Virus record (IMG/VR): IMGVR_UViG_3300035670_001022
Location: 1 to 28,320 of that record
DNA: 28,320 bases
Origin: a virus
Reading direction: 5' to 3' (one strand)
The notes beneath the pieces were generated by a model. That model saw only the letters and a program-made list of their open reading frames with translations, made no database searches and was not told the origin of the DNA. Position 1 is the first letter of the stretch, and each line of letters starts with the position of its first letter. Below, one piece after another: positions 3,872-28,320 of this stretch. Made by a program: the position numbers and the translations under genes.

Positions 3872-4354
3872 TTAGGCGTAAGTGCCGACCGTGGAGATGG
3901 CAGGCCAGTTGAGCGAACCGGTCGTGTTGACCGCATCTGCGCCGCCGGTGGCCGTGCCAAGGACCATGCCTTCGATGTAAAGCGTGCCAACGGTGCTGGC
4001 GTCGTCCACCTGTCCGGCGTCAGACGTTGCCGCCAGACGGCCATTGGCCGCTGCGTCCTGCTCCGTCCGGATACCGCACGGGCCATAGACCTGCGCCCAT
4101 CCATACTCGTTGTCGGCAAATGCCGTCTCCACAACGCCGATCTTGTCGCCAAGCGCATCGTTGGAAGTCGTGAGCATTGCCGCCTGAAACGACTCGTCAA
4201 TGGTGACGACATAGCCGTCCCCGGTGATTTCGCCGCTTGCCTGCACGTAGACGTAGGCCTTGCCCACGCCCCACATGATAGTCCCCAGCTCGAAAGTGGG
4301 GTTCGTTGAAACCTCGTCAAACGAGGCCCCAACTGCGTTCTGACCAATAGTCAT
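3872..4354 (-). CDS. Probable capsid decoration/cement protein
   Basis: The 160-residue product is rich in Gly, Ala, Thr and Val with alternating hydrophobic strands ('TIMWGVGKAYVYVQASGEIT', 'GTLYIEGMVLGTATGG') and few charged residues. It lies directly downstream of the major capsid gene, separated by 12 bp. Small beta-rich proteins at this position are often decoration proteins that stabilise the mature head. No specific decoration family signature is visible, so the call rests on size, composition and synteny. A tail-related role is less likely because no tail gene is adjacent on the capsid side. Confidence 0.6.
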   Translation of the reverse strand: MTIGQNAVGASFDEVSTNPTFELGTIMWGVGKAYVYVQASGEITGDGYVVTIDESFQAAMLTTSNDALGDKIGVVETAFADNEYGWAQVYGPCGIRTEQDAAANGRLAATSDAGQVDDASTVGTLYIEGMVLGTATGGADAVNTTGSLNWPAISTVGTYA

Positions 4355-4366
4355 GGGTTTCCCTCC

Positions 4367-5377
4367 TCAGACGCTGCTATCGTAAAGCTTCGCCATGTGT
4401 TGAGGATCATTCATGGTAAGATTACCGAAAAATCCTATATGTTGTACGACTGCATCCTGGTTCACCGGCATCTGCTTGCCGCCGAACTTCACGAAGTTAC
4501 GATCAGGGTGGTAACGGAACTTCATCGCCTTGGTGTCGAGGAAGTAGGTGGTGTTGGCAGGCATGGCCGAGCCGATCCCGCCCTCAAGCACCACGTCCAC
4601 GGACTTGCCGCCGCCGTAGTATTTCAGGGTGGTGAAGCCGAGCTTGCCAAGGCCGTTCTCGTCATTGATGCGCTGGATGTTCACCGTCGCTGCCGTATAG
4701 GCAATGTAGTGCTCCTGAGCACACGCAATGATGTCCGGACCCTTCTTGCCTTTGGAGCGGGCAATCATGATCGCGTCGAAAATCGGCTTGATCGAAGTCG
4801 CCGTTACAGCCGTGTAAGCCGTTCCTGCAACCGTGATCGAGTTGGCATCATACGTGGTTGTCCGCCAGATGGCGTTGTCCGCGCGGCTGATACCGCCATA
4901 GGTGCCCGAATCAACCGTGGTCGGAACCATGAGCTGGAGACCGCCGATCTGGTTGGTGGCCGTGCCTGCAGAATGCACGTCCTCAACAAACCGGTCTTCC
5001 AGTTCCTGCTCAGCGGCGGAGATATGCTCCTCCATGATGTTCTTGAGCTGGTTGCGGCCCGAGTTCTTCAGGATGTCCTCTCCCGACAGCGTGACCGACA
5101 CAGCCGCCAGCTTTGCGGTAAATTCCGCATCGTTGAACAGCTCGGCCGGGGTCGGATTGAGGAACTGGTATCCCGAATAACGGGTGTAGGTGCCGCTCTC
5201 ATTGTAGAGCAGGCGCTCGCGGATCGAAGGCCCGGAAAACTCCTTGAACTGGTTCCGGCTCTTCATCACCGAGAGGATGGCGTTGGAATTGCTCACAAGG
5301 TCGGCATAACCGGCGCTGCGCTCTTCCAGGGCCAGCGAGAAAGCTTCCTGGAGCTTCTCGGTTGAGGTCAATGACAT
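4367..5377 (-). CDS. Major capsid protein (HK97-fold, podovirus type)
   Basis: The 336-residue product has hallmarks of a major head protein: an N-terminal helical arm ('LTSTEKLQEAFSLALEERSA'), 'FSGPSIRERLLYNESGTYTR' (N-arm/E-loop-like), a long spine helix ('QLKNIMEEHISAAEQELEDR'), and 'GIGSAMPANTTYFLDTKAMK' followed by 'FRYHPDRNFVKFGGKQMPVN' near the C-terminus. The closing 'QDAVVQHIGFFGNLTMNDPQ' resembles the 'w.GNlt..n...qG.l' endings of many podovirus coat proteins. It sits between scaffold and decoration genes. No N-terminal delta domain or protease gene is seen, which fits a separate scaffold protein rather than HK97-type maturation. Confidence 0.85.
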   Translation of the reverse strand: MSLTSTEKLQEAFSLALEERSAGYADLVSNSNAILSVMKSRNQFKEFSGPSIRERLLYNESGTYTRYSGYQFLNPTPAELFNDAEFTAKLAAVSVTLSGEDILKNSGRNQLKNIMEEHISAAEQELEDRFVEDVHSAGTATNQIGGLQLMVPTTVDSGTYGGISRADNAIWRTTTYDANSITVAGTAYTAVTATSIKPIFDAIMIARSKGKKGPDIIACAQEHYIAYTAATVNIQRINDENGLGKLGFTTLKYYGGGKSVDVVLEGGIGSAMPANTTYFLDTKAMKFRYHPDRNFVKFGGKQMPVNQDAVVQHIGFFGNLTMNDPQHMAKLYDSSV

Positions 5378-20535: not shown

Positions 20536-20796
20536 ATGACCGAGACATACGACCACACTGAAGGCCTCGAAAAAGCGCGTCAGCTTACGATGCAGGATTG
20601 CTCCGGGTTTAGTGCCCCGGTCTGCACGTCTGCGGTCTGCGGCACGCATACGGACAACCTGATTGCGCACGCGCTTTACATCAACGTACGCGATGGAGAA
20701 ATCGTTGGCACCCCATTCGGGCCGGAAATCCCCAATGGGCGGTACGTGTGGATTGCTGATTTGCAAAGCGCGGCCCGCGCAGCGAAGGAGAGCTGA
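20536..20796 (+). CDS. Hypothetical protein
   Basis: The 86-residue product (MTETYDHTEGLEKARQLTMQ) has three cysteines in its middle ('QDCSGFSAPVCTSAVCG') and a beta-rich C-terminus ('GPEIPNGRYVWIADLQSAAR'). The start at 20536 has AGGAAG upstream and follows the HNH stop by two bases. No family is recognised. It lies between an HNH nuclease and a cytosine methyltransferase, but nothing ties it to either. Confidence 0.6.
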   Translation: MTETYDHTEGLEKARQLTMQDCSGFSAPVCTSAVCGTHTDNLIAHALYINVRDGEIVGTPFGPEIPNGRYVWIADLQSAARAAKES

Positions 20797-20797
20797 C

Positions 20798-21445
20798 GTG
20801 CGCGTGTTGAACCTCTACGCAGGCGTTGGCGGGAACCGGAAGCTGTGGGCCGATTGCCAGGTGACGGCAGTTGAGTTGAACCCGGCTATCGCTGCTGTCT
20901 ACCAGCGGCTTTACACGGACGATACGGTCATCGTAGGAGACGCGCACGCATACCTTGAGCAGCATTGGCGCGAGTTCGATTTCATCTGGTCGAGCCCGCC
21001 CTGCCCGACACATTCCCGCATGGCCAAGGCGACCCGGCATGACCTGCGCCGGTATCCAGACCTGAAGCTGTACGAGGAAATCCTGTTCCTGAAACACTTC
21101 TTCAAGGGAGCCTGGTGCGTCGAGAATGTCGTGCCCTTCTATGAATACCTGATCCCGGCGCAGGTCCGTGGCCGTCACGCGTATTGGGCAAGCGGGCCGA
21201 TCCCTAGTTATTGCGAGCCGATGCCTGCTGACTTCATCAACCTTGCCAACGTGGAGGGCAAGCGCCGCCTGCAAGATTGGCTGGGCATTCACTTCGAGGA
21301 AAACATCTACATCGGCAACAACCACTGCCCTGCCCAAGTGCTCCGCAACTGCGTGCATCCCAATGAGGGCTTGGCCATTTTCAACGCGCTGACAGGACGC
21401 GGCTTCGATCCGCCGACTGAGCAGCTTAGCTTACTGGAGACCTGA
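20798..21445 (+). CDS. C5-cytosine DNA methyltransferase (solitary)
   Basis: The 215-residue product has the C5-methylase motif order. Motif I is LYAGVGG (6-12), which binds S-adenosylmethionine. An acidic 'TAVELNP' follows (motif II), then 'VIVGDAHAYL' (motif III), PPCP with the catalytic cysteine at 69 (motif IV), 'VENVVPFY' (motif VI, 108-115) and a QVRGR (122-126) that may be motif VIII. The target-recognition part is very short and the protein is much smaller than bacterial methylases (often over 300 residues). Start is a GTG at 20798 after AAGGAG. No cognate restriction gene is seen, so it probably protects phage DNA or modifies host DNA. Confidence 0.85.
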   Translation: MRVLNLYAGVGGNRKLWADCQVTAVELNPAIAAVYQRLYTDDTVIVGDAHAYLEQHWREFDFIWSSPPCPTHSRMAKATRHDLRRYPDLKLYEEILFLKHFFKGAWCVENVVPFYEYLIPAQVRGRHAYWASGPIPSYCEPMPADFINLANVEGKRRLQDWLGIHFEENIYIGNNHCPAQVLRNCVHPNEGLAIFNALTGRGFDPPTEQLSLLET

Positions 21446-23014: not shown

Positions 23015-23340
23015 GCGCGCTCCTGACGATACAGCAGGCGGCCAAACAGCTTGGCGTGTCAGAAGACACCTTCCGCGCTATTGTGCGAGAGGGAGGCATT
23101 CCGCGCATTCGTATTTCGGAAAGGGTCGTCCGGTACGATCCTGAAGACGTGGCTGCATATATCGAGAGGGCAAAATGTCGGTCTACAGAAAAGGCCGCTT
23201 CTGGCACTATGACTTCATCATCCAGGGCCAGCGCTTCTACGGTTCGACGGGTCAGGAAACAAAGCGCGCTGCCGAAGCCGTGGAGCGAAAGAAGCGACTT
23301 GAGGCCGCGACCGGCACCCGTGAAGACGCCGGGCAACTGA
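23011..23340 (+). CDS. xis-like: Excisionase-like helix-turn-helix protein
   Basis: The 109-residue frame begins with an excisionase/MerR-type winged helix at about 3-53: 'LLTIQQAAKQLGVSEDTFRA', 'IVREGGIPRIRISERVVRYD', 'PEDVAAYIERAK'. Proteins of this type bind the att arms and bias integrase toward excision. The usual length is 60-70 residues; here the frame continues 166 bp into int, and the tail is low-complexity Ser/Arg/Pro, probably of no structural value. The start overlaps the upstream stop (ATGA). It could also act as a transcription regulator of int. Confidence 0.8.
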   Translation: MSALLTIQQAAKQLGVSEDTFRAIVREGGIPRIRISERVVRYDPEDVAAYIERAKCRSTEKAASGTMTSSSRASASTVRRVRKQSALPKPWSERSDLRPRPAPVKTPGN

Positions 23341-24236
23341 CGATCGACCAGGCCGCGTCCAAATACTGGGATGAGAAGTCACCCACTACCAAGGACAAGG
23401 ACCACCTGCAACGCCGCCTGACCGTCATGGTGAGCTGCGTCGGCAAGCACAAGAAGCTCTACGAGATAGACGCCCCGGACGTGCTGGAGGCCATCGCGCG
23501 CCGCAGGGCCTACAAGGACCAGCGCCGCCCGCCCTCGCCCTCCACGATCAACAGGGATCTGATAGACACCACCCTGCGCCCCCTGATGAACCGTGCCCGC
23601 AAGGCCTGGAAGGCAAAGGGGCTGGCAGAGATAGACTGGGCATCCCTGCGCCAGCGCGAGCCCGAGGCCGAGGCGCGCGAGTATTCAGACGCTCAGGTCA
23701 CCGCATGGAAAGCCGCCCTGCCCCCGGTTGAGCGGTTCTTTCTCCACTTGCTGCTGCGCTACGGCCCCCGGTTCGGAGAGCTGTATTTCCACCCTGACCG
23801 GTTCGACGCAGACGGCCCGCGCCTCAACCTGCCCGGCTCCAGCCGGAAGAACAACCGCGACCACGTTGTGCCCCTACAGGCTGAGGACGCCGCCATCATC
23901 GCCGCTATGGTCGGCATCGCCCGCGCCGCAGGGGCTGACCATATCTGGCTCCTCCCCGGAGACCCGCCGGTCGAGATCACCTACAATCAGATGCACTGGC
24001 GCCTGCGCTCCGCGGCGAAGGCTGCCGGGCTGACCATGCCCCGCGTGATCCACGGCGCCCGCCACCACACTGGCATGAAGACTCTGCGCGCCACGGGCAA
24101 TCTCCGCCTCACACAGCGGCTTCTAGGACACGCGACGATACAATCCACCGTCCGCTACGCGCACGCCACAGAAGCCGATCTCAGGGCCGCGCTGGACGGA
24201 ATGCATGGCCAGCCGCCGAAGGCAGACGAAGCGTGA
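23175..24236 (+). CDS. int: Tyrosine integrase
   Basis: The 353-residue product is a phage tyrosine recombinase. The N-terminus has an arm-binding-like domain (MSVYRKGRFWHYDFIIQGQR), followed by a core-binding helical domain ('LTIDQAASKYWDEKSPTTKD') and the catalytic domain. Catalytic residues are visible in order: R199 in YGPRFGEL, K225 in RKNNRDHVVPL, H293 and R296 in IHGARHH, H319 in LLGHATIQSTV, and nucleophile Y328 in RYAH. The ATG follows GAGGG and overlaps the excisionase frame by 166 bp. The gene ends about 125 bp before the tRNA-Leu half, the usual int-attP order. Confidence 0.95.
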   Translation: MSVYRKGRFWHYDFIIQGQRFYGSTGQETKRAAEAVERKKRLEAATGTREDAGQLTIDQAASKYWDEKSPTTKDKDHLQRRLTVMVSCVGKHKKLYEIDAPDVLEAIARRRAYKDQRRPPSPSTINRDLIDTTLRPLMNRARKAWKAKGLAEIDWASLRQREPEAEAREYSDAQVTAWKAALPPVERFFLHLLLRYGPRFGELYFHPDRFDADGPRLNLPGSSRKNNRDHVVPLQAEDAAIIAAMVGIARAAGADHIWLLPGDPPVEITYNQMHWRLRSAAKAAGLTMPRVIHGARHHTGMKTLRATGNLRLTQRLLGHATIQSTVRYAHATEADLRAALDGMHGQPPKADEA

Positions 24237-24483
24237 ACAAAGTTCGGGATATATGGGGGACTGCTAATCGGCCCCTACCGTCCTGTTTCGGGTTCGTTCG
24301 GGGATCGGTTCCGGGGTGACAAACAGCCAGAACCCCCGTAGATGCAGCAGATTACCGAGAGTGCCGGCGTGGTGGAACGGTAGACACAGGGGACTTAAAA
24401 TCCCTCATCGATCGACAAAAACATTATCGATCGCAAAGACTTAGCCGTCGATCGTCAGATAGCTTCGGGACTATTTCGGGAAA
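24237..24483. other. attP: Probable attP region
   Basis: This non-coding stretch after int holds a tRNA-Leu 5' half (24363-24406) as likely core. The hexamer TTCGGG occurs in the same orientation at 24243, as a pair at 24287 and 24297, and as a pair at 24464 and 24475, so paired copies flank the core at similar distances. Three TCGATCG copies at 24408, 24427 and 24448 adjoin the core at 19-21 bp spacing. Phased short repeats on both sides of a tRNA core fit integrase arm sites and accessory protein sites. The exact crossover cannot be fixed without the host attB. Confidence 0.7.
24363..24406 (+). tRNA. tRNA-Leu(UAA) 5' half only (attachment core, not a complete tRNA)
   Basis: The sequence matches the 5' half of a bacterial tRNA-Leu: acceptor strand GCCGGCG, D-arm with GGTGGAAC and GGTAGACAC, and the anticodon arm GGGGA-CTTAAAA-TCCCT with anticodon TAA. 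The match ends there: no variable arm, T-arm or 3' acceptor strand follows, and the downstream DNA is a TCGATCG repeat. It cannot form a functional tRNA alone. It is best read as the sequence shared by attP and attB. Having the 5' half in attP is the reverse of the usual 3'-half rule. Confidence 0.8.
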
Positions 24484-24490
24484 GCCCAAC

Positions 24491-24523
24491 AAAAAACCCC
24501 GCCCGGTCAAAGACCAGACGGGG
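24491..24523 (-). terminator. Intrinsic terminator for the leftward accessory genes
   Basis: On the minus strand a 12-bp stem (CCCCGTCTGGTC with GACCGGGCGGGG, two of the pairs G-U) with a three-base loop is followed by six Ts. It lies about 60 bp past the stop of the gene at 24584-24808 and ends that transcript before it enters attP and int. Confidence 0.85.
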
Positions 24524-24583
24524 CTGCTTTCCCTCAGGGGCTGGGGGGCTGATGGGTCCGAGGGTCAGCGCTCTGGATTATCT

Positions 24584-24808
24584 TCAGGATTGTGGCGGGG
24601 GTGGGGCGGCGTAAGCCTTGCGCGCAATCATCGCTTCATAAGCCATGTGCGCGGCTTCAAGTTCAGCGCGCATCTCGGCGCGGCGAACGTCCTGTTTGAT
24701 TTTCTGCTCAATGGGAACATTTGCGTTCCACATATCTGAATATTGCATTGCGGATCGTGCACGGGTGTACCGTTCGGCAATGGCGCGTTCTTCTTCTGTC
24801 AGTGTCAC
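24584..24808 (-). CDS. Small helical protein paired with the RHH regulator
   Basis: The 74-residue product (MTLTEEERAIAERYTRARSA) is helical and charged, with 'EQKIKQDVRRAEMRAELEAA' and a C-terminal run of four prolines. No family is recognised. Its start overlaps the stop of the ribbon-helix-helix gene (ATGA), and the two form a two-gene operon ending at the terminator at 24491-24523. The arrangement recalls a toxin-antitoxin pair, but the protein has no recognisable toxin motif. Confidence 0.6.
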   Translation of the reverse strand: MTLTEEERAIAERYTRARSAMQYSDMWNANVPIEQKIKQDVRRAEMRAELEAAHMAYEAMIARKAYAAPPPPQS

Positions 24809-24990
24809 TTCAGTCTCTCCTTCAGCAGCTTGAGAAGTTCAGCGTTGGTAATTGGCTGAGCCTTTTCCAGCGCCTTCAATCCAGCAATGACCGCAGCCTT
24901 TGCGCTGGGGTAGCCTTTTGCCACACGATCCAGCAACTCGACTTCTTCGGGCTGGAACCGGAACGATCTCGGGGTGTCATTTCTTGCCAT
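24805..24990 (-). CDS. Ribbon-helix-helix DNA-binding protein
   Basis: The 61-residue product (MARNDTPRSFRFQPEEVELL) has the RHH pattern: a strand 'PRSFRFQ', a helix 'PEEVELLDRVAKGYP', a turn and a second helix 'SAKAAVIAGLKALEKA'. RHH proteins bind DNA as dimers on repeated short sites and often repress their own promoter. A promoter with boxes TTGACA-17-TACGTT starts transcription about at the ATG at 24990, so the mRNA may be leaderless. Repeats TGTC..TACA in the promoter region are candidate operators. The longer frame beginning at 25041 would cover the promoter. Confidence 0.75.
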   Translation of the reverse strand: MARNDTPRSFRFQPEEVELLDRVAKGYPSAKAAVIAGLKALEKAQPITNAELLKLLKERLK

Positions 24991-25089
24991 GGCGTTAACG
25001 TAGCGACGGCCAGAAATTTTGTCAATACACCCCCTTGTCATGTCGCTACAGATTGGCTATCTTGTCACTACAGACACGGAGCCCCCGCC
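24991..25089. promoter_or_regulatory. Divergent promoters with phased repeats of the accessory cassette
   Basis: Leftward promoter: TTGACA (25025-25020), 17-bp spacer, TACGTT (25002-24997). Rightward promoter: TTGTCA (25035-25040), 17-bp spacer, TATCTT (25058-25063). Three direct repeats related to TGTCRMTACA lie at 25020-25029, 25041-25050 and 25063-25072, spaced 21-22 bp (two helical turns), and an inverted GTCGCTAC copy lies at 25000-25007. The repeats overlap the -35, spacer or -10 elements, so a bound dimer of the RHH protein could repress both promoters. Confidence 0.75.
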
Positions 25090-25248
25090 ATGAACCTCAC
25101 CGCCCACATTGCCCGCCAGAACCGCAAGACCGCTGGTGACTTGCTCAAGACAGCGTGCAAGCTGATTGAAGGCTGCACCGATCCTCACAAGCGCTTCCTC
25201 GCCATGCGCGAACTGCGCCGGATGCAGCAGCTTGCAGGTGCCGCATGA
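25090..25248 (+). CDS. Small basic protein of the accessory cassette
   Basis: The 52-residue product (MNLTAHIARQNRKTAGDLLK) is basic and helical, ending 'FLAMRELRRMQQLAGAA'. It follows the rightward promoter by about 20 bp, and its stop overlaps the start of the membrane protein gene (ATGA). The ribosome-binding site is a weak GGAG (25078-25081). No family is recognised. It may be an accessory or regulatory partner of the downstream membrane protein. Confidence 0.6.
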   Translation: MNLTAHIARQNRKTAGDLLKTACKLIEGCTDPHKRFLAMRELRRMQQLAGAA

Positions 25249-25865
25249 CAACGAAGCGCACCCTTCCGACACAGGCCCCGAAGTTCTCCGAGGGCGAATG
25301 GATCACCGGCATTGCAACGGTCGTGTCCTGCACCATCTCGGCGCTGGCCCTGTCCTATCACATATGGGACGAAATCACGGTCAGTCACGAGGCTGTCAGG
25401 ATCGCCTTCACGGGCCTTGCTGGCGCCTTCGCCCTGCTGATGGGGATTGTGCCCATGTCCCTCGCCAGAGCGCACGGGAGCGCAATGGAAGGCGGTAACG
25501 CTCAGTCTGGCTTGCTGGTGCTGGTCGTGCTGTTCATGACCGTGGACGCGGCTTTGCAGATCCATGCGATACAGTACATCATGAAGCTGATGGGCCTGAC
25601 GCCTCCGGGCATGTGGCTTCTGGTAGCCATAACAGCCGCGTTCCAGATCGGGGCGTTCTTTGTGAGGGGCCAGCTCTATGCAGCCTCCCGCGAAATCCAG
25701 GAACTCATCGACGCTCGAGCCCATGAGCGGGAACTAGCCCGCGAGAACCGCCGGGCGCGTCTGGAAGCCGAAGCCACTGAGCTGGGCATCCTGTTTGATG
25801 GGCGGACCTCTGACAGCATCTTGCAGGGGAAGATACATCAGCGGCGGATGCACGCTGTAGGCTGA
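25245..25865 (+). CDS. Four-helix membrane protein with C-terminal coiled coil (moron candidate)
   Basis: The 206-residue product has four membrane segments: about 20-41 ('ITGIATVVSCTISALALSYH'), 50-73 ('RIAFTGLAGAFALLMGIVPM'), 87-112 ('SGLLVLVVLFMTVDAALQIH') and 121-147 ('GMWLLVAITAAFQIGAFFVR'). A charged coiled coil of about 35 residues follows ('AHERELARENRRARLEAEAT'). No family is recognised. It has its own divergent promoter region and sits just before a terminator hairpin, on the opposite strand to the flanking lysis genes. That combination is typical of a moron expressed in the lysogen, such as a superinfection-exclusion or host-modifying membrane protein; the function is inferred from context only. 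Confidence 0.7.
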   Translation: MTTKRTLPTQAPKFSEGEWITGIATVVSCTISALALSYHIWDEITVSHEAVRIAFTGLAGAFALLMGIVPMSLARAHGSAMEGGNAQSGLLVLVVLFMTVDAALQIHAIQYIMKLMGLTPPGMWLLVAITAAFQIGAFFVRGQLYAASREIQELIDARAHERELARENRRARLEAEATELGILFDGRTSDSILQGKIHQRRMHAVG

Positions 25866-25866
25866 A

Positions 25867-25904
25867 ACAAAAAAGCCCGTCAGGACCGAACACCTGACGG
25901 GCTT
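25867..25904. terminator. Hairpin terminator between accessory cassette and lysis genes
   Basis: A perfect 12-bp stem (AAGCCCGTCAGG and CCTGACGGGCTT) with an eight-base loop lies 8 bp after the membrane protein stop. On the minus strand it is followed by a T-run, so it best terminates the leftward lysis transcript; for the rightward transcript the T-tract is short. It probably works in both directions and separates two convergent units. Confidence 0.8.
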
Positions 25905-26127: not shown

Positions 26128-26529
26128 TCACATCACCGAGATGCAAGCTCTTGCCATTGATACGTTCCGCTCCCGGATGGCGTCCTTGATCTTCGAGACT
26201 TCCTGAACGGTGGGATTTGTCAGGCAGTCCAGATCATCCGCAGCGCAGAGGATTTGCGGTTCAGGGAGCGCGCCTTGCTTGCAGGCCATTTCCCCGACGC
26301 TGGCGTAATTCGCTGTCTGGAACACTGCCACGCCCGCCCAGATCAGCGACAGGGCCAGCACGGTCAGCATAGCCCCCGGAAGCCATTGCAGGAGCGTGAA
26401 CGAGTGCTTGCCTACGTAATGGGCTTTGACCTGCCCCGCATTGACCGGCGCCACCTTTGCAGGCGGGTTCAGGTGCTTGCTGACAAGCTTTGGCTTGGGG
26501 CGGGTTACTGTTGGCACGACACCGCCCAC
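26128..26529 (-). CDS. Single-pass membrane protein of the lysis region
   Basis: The 133-residue product (GTG start at 26529, MGGVVPTVTRPKPKLVSKHL) has a basic cytoplasmic head of about 45 residues, one membrane helix ('LPGAMLTVLALSLIWAGVAV') and a C-terminal domain with four cysteines ('GEMACKQG', 'ILCAADDLDCLTNP', 'ARACISVM'), consistent with a periplasmic, disulfide-bonded part. The start overlaps the outer-membrane lipoprotein gene by 25 bp; a second GTG at 26517 is possible. No family is recognised. Its place behind the spanin genes suggests a lysis accessory role or a virion-linked envelope protein. Confidence 0.6.
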   Translation of the reverse strand: MGGVVPTVTRPKPKLVSKHLNPPAKVAPVNAGQVKAHYVGKHSFTLLQWLPGAMLTVLALSLIWAGVAVFQTANYASVGEMACKQGALPEPQILCAADDLDCLTNPTVQEVSKIKDAIRERNVSMARACISVM

Positions 26530-26834
26530 TGCTCGTCATTGCCCACCACATAGATGCGGGTCCATTCAGGGGCGGCACGGTAGTCATCTTCTGTCACGCC
26601 ATAAGTTGGACTGACGGAACAGGTGCCGTCATCGTTGCGTTCGCCAGCGCACCAAACAATGGTGTCCAGAGACTTCGGAACCTGCCCGAAGCACCACTGC
26701 GCCTTAGCGACGTTTACTGCCGTCTCCTGTAGCTGCACCACGTCCAAAGATGCGTTTGCGCTGGGCGTCTGACATGCGCTCAGGGTCAAGAGGCTGAGCA
26801 GTGTCGCGGCGGTCAATAGCTTGTTCGGCTTCAT
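26505..26834 (-). CDS. Rz1-like: Outer-membrane lipoprotein, Rz1-like o-spanin candidate
   Basis: The 109-residue product has a lipoprotein signal peptide, MKPNKLLTAATLLSLLTLSA followed by Cys21, so the lipobox is LSAC. The mature part contains further cysteines and Trp residues ('AVNVAKAQWCFGQVPKSLDT', 'TCSVSPTYGVTEDD'). The gene starts inside the i-spanin candidate and overlaps it by 131 bp in another frame, the classical Rz/Rz1 arrangement. At about 89 mature residues it is longer than lambda Rz1 and not proline-rich, so the assignment depends on the overlap and lipobox. It would join the inner-membrane partner to bridge and fuse the membranes at lysis. Confidence 0.7.
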   Translation of the reverse strand: MKPNKLLTAATLLSLLTLSACQTPSANASLDVVQLQETAVNVAKAQWCFGQVPKSLDTIVWCAGERNDDGTCSVSPTYGVTEDDYRAAPEWTRIYVVGNDEQWAVSCQQ

Positions 26835-27057
26835 CCTGAGCCTCCTGTTTTAAGGTTTCCACGTACTCTACAGCGCGCTCTTTCTGGCGCATGTTCTCGG
26901 CGCGTTGCTTCAGGCGTTCCTCACGCCGGATGCGCCGGTCACGAAGCCCAAGCCATGAGAAAAACAGCAGCAGACCGGCGCCAATGCCAGCGGCCCACTG
27001 CGCTGCGGGATTTGACTTAAACCACAGCCAAATGCCGTATCCTATCGGGGCGGCCAT
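26704..27057 (-). CDS. Rz-like: Inner-membrane Rz-like i-spanin candidate
   Basis: The 117-residue product has one N-terminal membrane segment at about 17-38 ('AAQWAAGIGAGLLLFFSWLG') and a long charged helix ('RRIRREERLKQRAENMRQKE', 'RAVEYVETLKQEAQDEAEQA'), the plan of a type II inner-membrane spanin subunit with a periplasmic coiled coil. It directly follows the lysozyme gene (one-base overlap at 27057), and the lipoprotein gene begins inside it. Together these two make a standard two-component spanin set. Confidence 0.72.
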   Translation of the reverse strand: MAAPIGYGIWLWFKSNPAAQWAAGIGAGLLLFFSWLGLRDRRIRREERLKQRAENMRQKERAVEYVETLKQEAQDEAEQAIDRRDTAQPLDPERMSDAQRKRIFGRGAATGDGSKRR

Positions 27058-28109
27058 CAGTATTTCGGATCCTGCGTATGCTGGCGGCGATAGTGCGCCT
27101 CAGACCGGCCGGACCACCACATGATGATGCCCATGACCATCAGGAACCCGCAAACCAGGCCTGCCATAATCATGAACGTTTCTGGCTTGAATTTCTCGAT
27201 CAGCGTTCCGACGCGCTCTGCATTGGCCGCCGCTGCGGTGACACCCGTGCCGGTGATGGTGCCGATGATGGCCGTTTCCTTGCCACGCTCAGCCCGGTTG
27301 ACCGCCTTGCCGGTCTTGCTCTCTTCGATCTTCTTCGGGGGCAGCGTGACATCCACCGGCTCAGCAGGAGGGGCTACCTTCTCCTTGGCAGCGGCTTTCG
27401 GCTTTGCGGCAGGCGGAGGAGGGCGAGGCGTGGCGACGGTCTGGCCTACCTTGCCACCGAGCTTTTCGAGCTGGGCGTTGTTGAGGTCGGCGGTGATCTG
27501 GTCTTCCGTCTTTGGCGCCACCTTTTCTGCTTCGTGGCGGGCAACTTCCAGCACGTGCCAAGGATCGGTCTGCTCAATGATCTGGCCGTTTGCGCGCTTG
27601 AGCGTGGCCGTCCATGCATAACGGTGCGGCCAGTTCATCATCAGGCACAGTTCTGCCAGCCTGCGGCGGTAGAGGCCCTTCTCTGTCGGGGTGTTCGGGT
27701 TGCGGTACTTGATCCACCAGTCCACAATTTCATTGAAGTCGCGGGGCTTGCGGTTGAACACAGTGGGCAGGGTGTATTGGCCCGCCTCCAGCTTTCCCAT
27801 TCGGATGTTGTATGTCCAGGATGCGCAAGCGTCATGCTCGGCCTGTGTGTCGCAGTTGAAATGCTTCCAGACAAGCGGGTCCACCACGTTGTGCATGAAG
27901 AACTCAAAGGCATCATCTGCCTGCTGTTGAGTGATAGTCAGGCCCTTGACCACCGGAATTTGCCCCGGCGTGCCCGGAAACAGGAAGTTCTCCTGCCCCC
28001 AGCCGATAACCCAGTTGTTGCTGGTGTCGTCCCAATATGCATCGAGCCTGCAATCCTCAAACTCGCGCACAAAGGCTTTCACCTCATTGCTAGAACTATG
28101 CCTGTTCAT
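27057..28109 (-). CDS. GH24-like phage lysozyme (endolysin) with C-terminal membrane segment
   Basis: The product has about 350 residues. Up to about residue 170 it reads as a phage lysozyme: 'VREFEDCRLDAYWDD' (E-x8-D as in T4 lysozyme E11/D20), 'IGWGQ', 'LTITQQQADDAFEFF', 'CASWTYNIRMGKLEAGQY', 'GLYRRRLAELCLM'. The position of catalytic Thr26 is occupied by Val ('NWVIGWGQ'), which is unusual. A Pro/Lys/Ala-rich linker follows (about 230-280). A strong membrane segment, 'FMIMAGLVCGFLMVMGIIMW', lies about 18 residues from the C-terminus. It should cut peptidoglycan at lysis. Start is ATG 28109 or 28121, both overlapping the upstream gene. Confidence 0.75.
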   Translation of the reverse strand: MNRHSSSNEVKAFVREFEDCRLDAYWDDTSNNWVIGWGQENFLFPGTPGQIPVVKGLTITQQQADDAFEFFMHNVVDPLVWKHFNCDTQAEHDACASWTYNIRMGKLEAGQYTLPTVFNRKPRDFNEIVDWWIKYRNPNTPTEKGLYRRRLAELCLMMNWPHRYAWTATLKRANGQIIEQTDPWHVLEVARHEAEKVAPKTEDQITADLNNAQLEKLGGKVGQTVATPRPPPPAAKPKAAAKEKVAPPAEPVDVTLPPKKIEESKTGKAVNRAERGKETAIIGTITGTGVTAAAANAERVGTLIEKFKPETFMIMAGLVCGFLMVMGIIMWWSGRSEAHYRRQHTQDPKY

Positions 28110-28320
28110 GGTCAGCCCCATTGGGTTTGTCAGTTTTCGGGAAGTCTACAGGGTACTCTTTCGGCCCTTCCGGTATCTCCAGATCGGGATCGGGCGCCTG
28201 CTCCGGCTCAGGTGGAACAGCAGCGCGCGGGTCAGGCTCTTCCGGCGCGGCCACACCCAGAATGCGGGCAGCGGCCTTGGCGTTGAAGATGCGGTTCACG
28301 AACGCTTCAAACTCGTTATA
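28096..28320 (-). CDS. Hypothetical protein, N-terminus beyond window edge (partial)
   Basis: The frame is open to the right edge, giving at least 74 C-terminal residues. It reads 'NEFEAFVNRIFNAKAAARIL' and then a Pro/Glu/Asp-rich acidic tail ('EEPDPRAAVPPEPEQAPDPD'). A GTG at 28299 could be an internal start but lacks a good ribosome-binding site, so a longer gene is more likely. It overlaps the lysozyme gene start. Nothing more can be said of its function; the acidic tail could be a virion or membrane-associated protein end. Confidence 0.5.
   Translation of the reverse strand, partial: YNEFEAFVNRIFNAKAAARILGVAAPEEPDPRAAVPPEPEQAPDPDLEIPEGPKEYPVDFPKTDKPNGADHEQA

Follow-up and report, generated by a model that had tools for sequence, protein, structure and literature searches.

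An independently mobile phage module combines an undescribed membrane-protein family with a swappable block for a putative RHH repressor

What is the use of a small divergent gene cassette lodged between the attachment site and the lysis genes of a temperate phage? The window analysed here, a virus record of 28,320 bases, raises this question at positions 24491-25904, where a leftward pair of genes (an RHH-type regulator and a 74-aa partner) lies beside a rightward pair (a 52-aa protein and a 206-aa four-TM protein), with back-to-back promoters between the pairs and one hairpin at each end. A probable attP core flanks the cassette on the left and oppositely oriented lysis and late genes flank it on the right. 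A first-pass annotation had proposed these four genes and this placement, and both hold. It had also read the cassette as a unit expressed from the prophage and possibly blocking superinfection. We find that the cassette is real and independently mobile as a phage module, in which a membrane protein of an undescribed family is joined to an unusual, swappable block with a putative repressor. The known kind of locus behind it would be an accessory RHH-controlled prophage locus, and prophage-expressed defence is a hypothesis about it. At a rough probability of 0.4, our tentative reading is that an autoregulated RHH repressor controls an inner-membrane effector of a new family, the function of which, by analogy, would be superinfection exclusion.

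Position of the cassette in the phage genome

To the left of the cassette, an integrase gene (23175-24236) faces a 40-bp segment (24367-24406, plus strand) that is identical to the 5' half of tRNA-Leu(TAA), through the anticodon arm, in Tabrizicola, Cypionkella and several other Rhodobacteraceae. Because of this identity, the segment is likely the attP core of the phage, and the host likely belongs to the Rhodobacteraceae. In the integrated state the cassette would sit at the prophage end, adjoining host DNA, and the 5' half of the host tRNA gene would be replaced. The whole stretch from 24363 to 24406 covers tRNA-Leu(TAA) from its start as far as the anticodon arm, and has GCCG in the acceptor stem where most sampled hosts have GCCC.

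To the right, the late genes occupy the strand opposite to the rightward unit and the two run convergently, so that its orientation keeps the cassette out of the late transcript. The lysis cluster (26505-28121) is read leftward, and the last gene of the lysis operon lies at 26128-26529. Within the cluster, the endolysin (27057-28121) joins a phage lysozyme domain to a C-terminal hydrophobic segment (residues 316-334), and an Rz-like ORF (26704-27057) overlaps an Rz1-like lipoprotein ORF (26505-26834) in a different frame; no separate holin was recognised in 26505-28121. The cassette is also separate from a Cro/CI-type regulator pair at 16.7-17.3 kb, which is likely the main switch of the phage. 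The early region further carries a C5 cytosine-DNA-methylase-like gene (20663-21445; Pfam DNA_methylase, PHROG DNA methyltransferase).

Between the two gene pairs, the regulator promoter reads TTGACA-17-TACGTT on the minus strand (25025-24997) and the promoter of the rightward unit reads TTGTCA-17-TATCTT on the plus strand (25035-25063), each with 9 of 12 consensus matches. Such sites are rare, the whole 28 kb holding 14 with at least 9/12 matches on both strands together, and the same promoter layout is found again in the relatives described below. The back-to-back promoters are thus present as first annotated, and only the word strong, at 9/12 each, was an overstatement. Terminator hairpins had likewise been placed at both ends, and the left one stands: at 24495-24525 (minus strand), 14 pairs followed by a minus-strand T-run form an intrinsic-terminator-like element that closes the leftward unit. 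The right hairpin (25873-25904, minus strand; 12 pairs) lies between the convergent units. Since its T-run is on the minus strand and the plus strand offers only TT, it suits the leftward lysis operon as an end signal better than it does the rightward unit, which it would serve at best as a weak, bidirectional terminator.

A membrane protein conserved across differing phages

The rightward operon opens with the gene for the 52-aa protein (25090-25248, plus strand), which overlaps by 4 bp the ORF of the 206-aa protein (25245-25865, plus strand). The latter has four hydrophobic segments and a charged tail rich in lysine and arginine. From hydropathy, alignment and a low-confidence model, it is predicted to span the membrane with four TM helices, both ends being cytosolic to judge by the charge of the tails. 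Conservation is strongest in the predicted cytosolic loop between TM2 and TM3 (LARxHGxAxEGxxAQxGL), and a second conserved block lies in juxtamembrane position right after TM4 (RGxLxAAxREIQxLIDARA).

The suspicion that this protein has no known family is borne out. In fact, none of the module proteins scored above cut-off against Pfam, PHROGs, NCBIfam or PADLOC, and a protein search of phage and plasmid records returned no match to the membrane protein. DUF2637 comprises plasmid-spread four-TM proteins and was considered for the 206-aa protein by description only. A structure-based search, recommended from the outset for this protein, came back empty: its model, built from a shallow alignment, reaches a pLDDT of 55 and has no significant Foldseek match in PDB or BFVD, and we therefore claim no fold. 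At the level of sequence, the 206-aa protein would represent a new, previously unclassified family of phage membrane proteins.

Three other contigs of the viral collection, L002, L003 and L046, encode this membrane protein at 48-61% identity to that of the window (L002 aligning at 64% over 179 residues and L003 at 51%), and the L046 protein is 89% identical to that of L002. In all four contigs, window included, an RHH-type gene is divergent from the membrane operon and directly upstream of it. Outside this arrangement the genomes differ: L002 has a few recombination and lysis genes in common with the window, L046 only some genes, and L003 nothing outside the module. Because it recurs amid otherwise differing genomes, the module travels on its own, apart from the rest of the phage genome. 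The membrane, 52-aa and RHH genes each have homologues and are thus more than chance ORFs, and the membrane gene is under purifying selection, with a dN of 0.07 and a dS of 0.46 between L002 and L046.

Not every gene of the cassette is kept. Homologues of the 52-aa protein occur in L002 (40%) and L046 (82% between these two contigs), where they are located outside the divergent pair, and L003 has none. The 74-aa partner ORF (24584-24808, minus strand), which has a GTG start and overlaps the stop of the RHH gene, shows the weakest coding signature in the cassette (GC3 0.54); no homologue of it was found, and it is unrelated to the partner ORFs in the relatives. Since the 52-aa gene and the partner ORFs vary in this way, the core of the module consists of the RHH gene, the operator and the membrane gene, without the 52-aa protein or the 74-aa partner.

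Relatives of the membrane protein were found in none of 395 Rhodobacteraceae and 385 alphaproteobacterial genomes, in a search that recovered two positive-control records. Two genome matches at E~0.003 were set aside as chance, covering only the C-terminal part of the profile and falling inside frames of 646 and 715 residues. An exact peptide pattern scan of the genome contigs found none either, a result that says little on distant relatives. Like a moron, the cassette has promoters of its own, flanking hairpins (the right one weak for the rightward unit) and a presence in otherwise unrelated phages. With its convergence on the late operon and its lack of family matches, this agrees with its first description as a self-contained accessory cassette.

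The regulator block and its exchange

The regulator gene (24805-24990, minus strand) encodes 61 aa from an ATG at 24990; an alternative ATG upstream, at 25041, falls beyond the promoter. The protein has no match in Pfam. Its membership in the RHH (Arc/Mnt/CopG-like) class draws support from its counterparts, which hit RHH profiles below the cut-off (RHH_10 at 23.2 bits against 27 for the L002 regulator, RHH_1 at 19.2 bits against 20.5 for that of L046), and from hhalign comparisons, in which the window-type profile aligns weakly but in register with Mnt (P 0.017) and Arc (P 0.098). The window regulator is homologous to those of L003 (score 96; shuffles 24 +/- 4.5) and L002 (score 51; shuffle maximum 46), both scores exceeding all 2000 shuffles. 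A low-confidence monomer model (pLDDT 66) contains two adjacent helices and a third; a structural search with it gave no convincing match, and the model is too poor to settle an RHH fold. Searches with the RHH protein returned only the query's own contig among the viral contigs and nothing among the 395 Rhodobacteraceae genomes, the latter search being run without a positive control.

Read from the sequence, the ATG of the regulator lies 6 nt after the -10 element in the window and 6-7 nt after it across all four loci. The regulator mRNA should therefore be leaderless in the window, L002, L003 and L046 alike. The lambda cI mRNA made from PRM is leaderless as well.

Both window promoters are covered by four operator-like sites of the form TGTCRCTACA, starting at 24999 (inverted), 25020, 25041 and 25063, that is, at spacings of 21, 21 and 22 bp or two helical turns. 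Site 1 (24999-25008, minus strand) lies over the -10 of the leftward promoter, and site 2 (25020-25029, plus strand; TGTCAATACA), which has two mismatches, lies over its -35. Site 3 (25041-25050, plus strand; TGTCGCTACA) falls inside the spacer of the rightward promoter, and site 4 (25063-25072, plus strand; TGTCACTACA) extends from the end of its -10 to the expected transcription start. Arrays of at least four sites also occur in L002 (GTGGGTATCA) and L003 (GCAGCAATAC), with sequences quite unlike those of the window, and at none of the three loci was the site count reached in any of 200 dinucleotide shuffles. L046 has one inverted pair only (GTAGAC/GTCTAC), without a clear four-site array. 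We thus regard the repeated half-sites at the RHH gene's own promoter as operator-like in the window, L002 and L003. With such sites over the promoters, the RHH protein probably represses the whole unit, its own gene included. The idea of a prophage-expressed unit therefore keeps its promoters and loses its simplicity: the cassette is probably not just switched on.

The comparison of L002 with L046 reveals how this block behaves. Homology between the two runs through the 52-aa gene and resumes about 35 bp before the membrane gene, from where it continues onward (88%). What has been replaced is the block of regulator, partner, both promoters and operator, and the swap ends shortly before the membrane gene's conserved leader. 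The L046 regulator is again RHH-like (RHH_1) and has no detectable relationship to the L002-type regulator, and its partner ORF is an HNH/AP2 endonuclease. An exchange of the whole block is expected if regulator and operator form one specificity unit for the downstream gene. The swap can be seen as a natural experiment in which repressor specificity diversifies and the effector is kept. At the third locus (L003, 1-1903), the RHH gene comes first in what looks like an operon, followed by a 76-aa ORF and the integrase gene with start/stop overlaps, and this regulator may control integration too.

Candidate roles of the membrane protein

To explain these observations, we propose that the cassette is an accessory locus that regulates itself in a temperate phage of Rhodobacteraceae. 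Its small RHH repressor, translated from a leaderless mRNA, would bind the four sites over both divergent promoters; because the sites span both, it would limit its own synthesis together with that of the rightward operon, whose four-TM inner-membrane protein would be the effector. In a lysogen, the effector would be kept at a low set level, and a burst would follow when the DNA enters a repressor-free cell or when the repressor is lost. We infer repression, membrane location and timing from the DNA. By analogy with known systems, the effector could then hinder the entry or growth of competing phages, through a block of DNA entry like that of P22 SieA or through the kind of gated depolarisation that has been suggested for RexB and Sbash gp31.

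The evidence for an exclusion unit comprises the synteny in four contigs, the operator-like arrays, the regulator swap, the purifying selection, the hydrophobic segments with their charged tail, the orientation opposed to the late genes, the separate Cro/CI-type locus and the likeness to a P22 gene plan described below. Against it, the membrane protein has no named homologue, and neither a SieA nor a RexB relationship was detected; L046 departs from the four-site pattern, and the RHH assignment of the window protein leans on its relatives and on the register with Mnt and Arc. Known exclusion genes are usually expressed constitutively from the prophage, and the operator-covered promoter argues against such simple constitutive expression here. 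Superinfection blocking by the 206-aa protein is nevertheless plausible by analogy, and we would rank superinfection exclusion as the likeliest role, ahead of an early function after infection and of a conversion of host physiology. If this reading is true, the membrane proteins would form a new family of phage effectors, served by a repressor-operator block that is dedicated to them and can be swapped, and the cassette would offer an easily cloned 1.4-kb unit for tests of prophage-encoded exclusion in Rhodobacteraceae.

Two kinds of exclusion protein invite comparison. Sbash gp31, CarolAnn gp43 and RexB are four-TM prophage exclusion proteins with cytosolic ends, and Sbash gp31 has invariant residues in its central cytosolic loop (PMC6426596, PMC6426606). 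The 206-aa protein resembles them in its predicted four TM helices, cytosolic ends and conserved TM2-TM3 loop. With lambda RexB, the protein of this class that was compared, hhalign gave a probability of 0.3 and no sequence homology. Beside the membrane gene there is no RexA/DUF4747-type sensor (~370 aa), the neighbours being 52-, 74- and 61-aa ORFs without family. Moreover, the cassette would be controlled by a divergent RHH protein, unlike the RexB class, which is expressed with the immunity repressor. P22 SieA is a small polytopic inner-membrane protein with its own promoter, opposed to the late genes (PMC10883804), and in these respects the window protein, as predicted, is much like it: a small polytopic membrane protein that a temperate phage encodes behind a separate promoter, on the strand opposite to the late genes. 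The P22 type differs in having three TM segments and no known dedicated divergent RHH repressor over its promoter, and hhalign (probability 1.8) found no sequence relationship between the two proteins.

The layout of the cassette recalls yet another P22 locus, immI, where mnt and arc-ant are transcribed away from each other, from overlapping promoters with operators between them, and sieA is adjacent (PMC8022706). In both, an RHH repressor, a putative one in the cassette, is divergent from a two-gene operon with a tiny first gene, largely outside late transcription, and immI encodes an inner-membrane exclusion protein alongside (sieA, which has its own promoter). The second rightward gene of the cassette encodes a membrane protein and not an antirepressor, and its 52-aa protein is not recognisably Arc-like, unlike the product of the P22 operon's first gene. 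If the exclusion reading is true, the cassette would follow the P22 second-immunity plan, but end in a membrane protein.

This likeness gives rise to a possible, if doubtful, alternative, in which the lysogen does not make the membrane protein, its gene being shut by the RHH repressor, and the protein acts within minutes of the infection of a non-immune cell or of induction. It would then alter the host membrane or the outcome of the lysis-lysogeny decision, as P22 Ant does by another route. Besides the match to mnt / arc-ant, this early role would account for the operator-like sites over both promoters, for the swap of regulator, promoter and operator as one block between close relatives, as in heteroimmune phages, and for what looks like an operon in L003, led by the regulator and including a small ORF and the integrase. 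However, the membrane protein is unrelated to antirepressors and would make an unusual lysogeny switch, and a main Cro/CI-type locus is present elsewhere.

A conversion of the host, with the membrane protein altering the envelope or transport physiology of the lysogen and leaving other phages unaffected, seems unlikely. It would suit the position at the prophage end given by attP, the separate promoter and the predicted membrane location. Yet such genes usually have cellular relatives, and the 395 Rhodobacteraceae and 385 alphaproteobacterial genomes contained no bacterial homologue. We also envision, as a decidedly unlikely scheme, a second immunity with a membrane effector: interchangeable RHH repressor/operator blocks would stand before one conserved membrane protein, a resident prophage would silence the copy of incomers of its own type and leave that of other types active, and the burst from an un-silenced phage would decide the co-infection contest at the inner membrane.

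Could the membrane protein instead control lysis, as the holin or antiholin that partners the endolysin and spanins encoded next to it? The lysis cluster does adjoin the cassette and lacks a recognised holin of its own, and the L003 protein gives a weak, sub-threshold holin hit (phrog_3428, E 0.056). But the gene lies on the strand opposite to the lysis genes, with a hairpin in between, and has its own promoter, probably covered by repressor. Its counterpart in L002 is set apart from the lysis genes by a 2.3-kb gene plus an HNH gene, and no recognised lysis gene adjoins the one in L003. The long conserved cytosolic tail is moreover unlike holins, and the endolysin has a C-terminal TM segment of its own, all of which makes lysis control very improbable. 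Hardly credible at all is a toxin-antitoxin pair with the RHH protein as antitoxin, the overlapping 74-aa ORF as toxin and the membrane gene as a mere neighbour: type II loci commonly have a short ORF overlapping the end of an RHH gene, but the partner ORFs of the relatives are mutually unrelated (one being the HNH/AP2 endonuclease), no toxin family matched in Pfam, NCBIfam or PADLOC, and the conserved element is the divergent membrane gene.

In L046 (5160-5696) and L002 (8622-9194), genes for HNH/AP2 endonucleases are found within the module or next to it, and they may have brought about the swap of the regulator block. L003 carries, at 3877-4917, an ORF with a long alanine-rich repeat stretch (AAAAAWRAAAAA...) that stems from GCC/GCG-repeat DNA.
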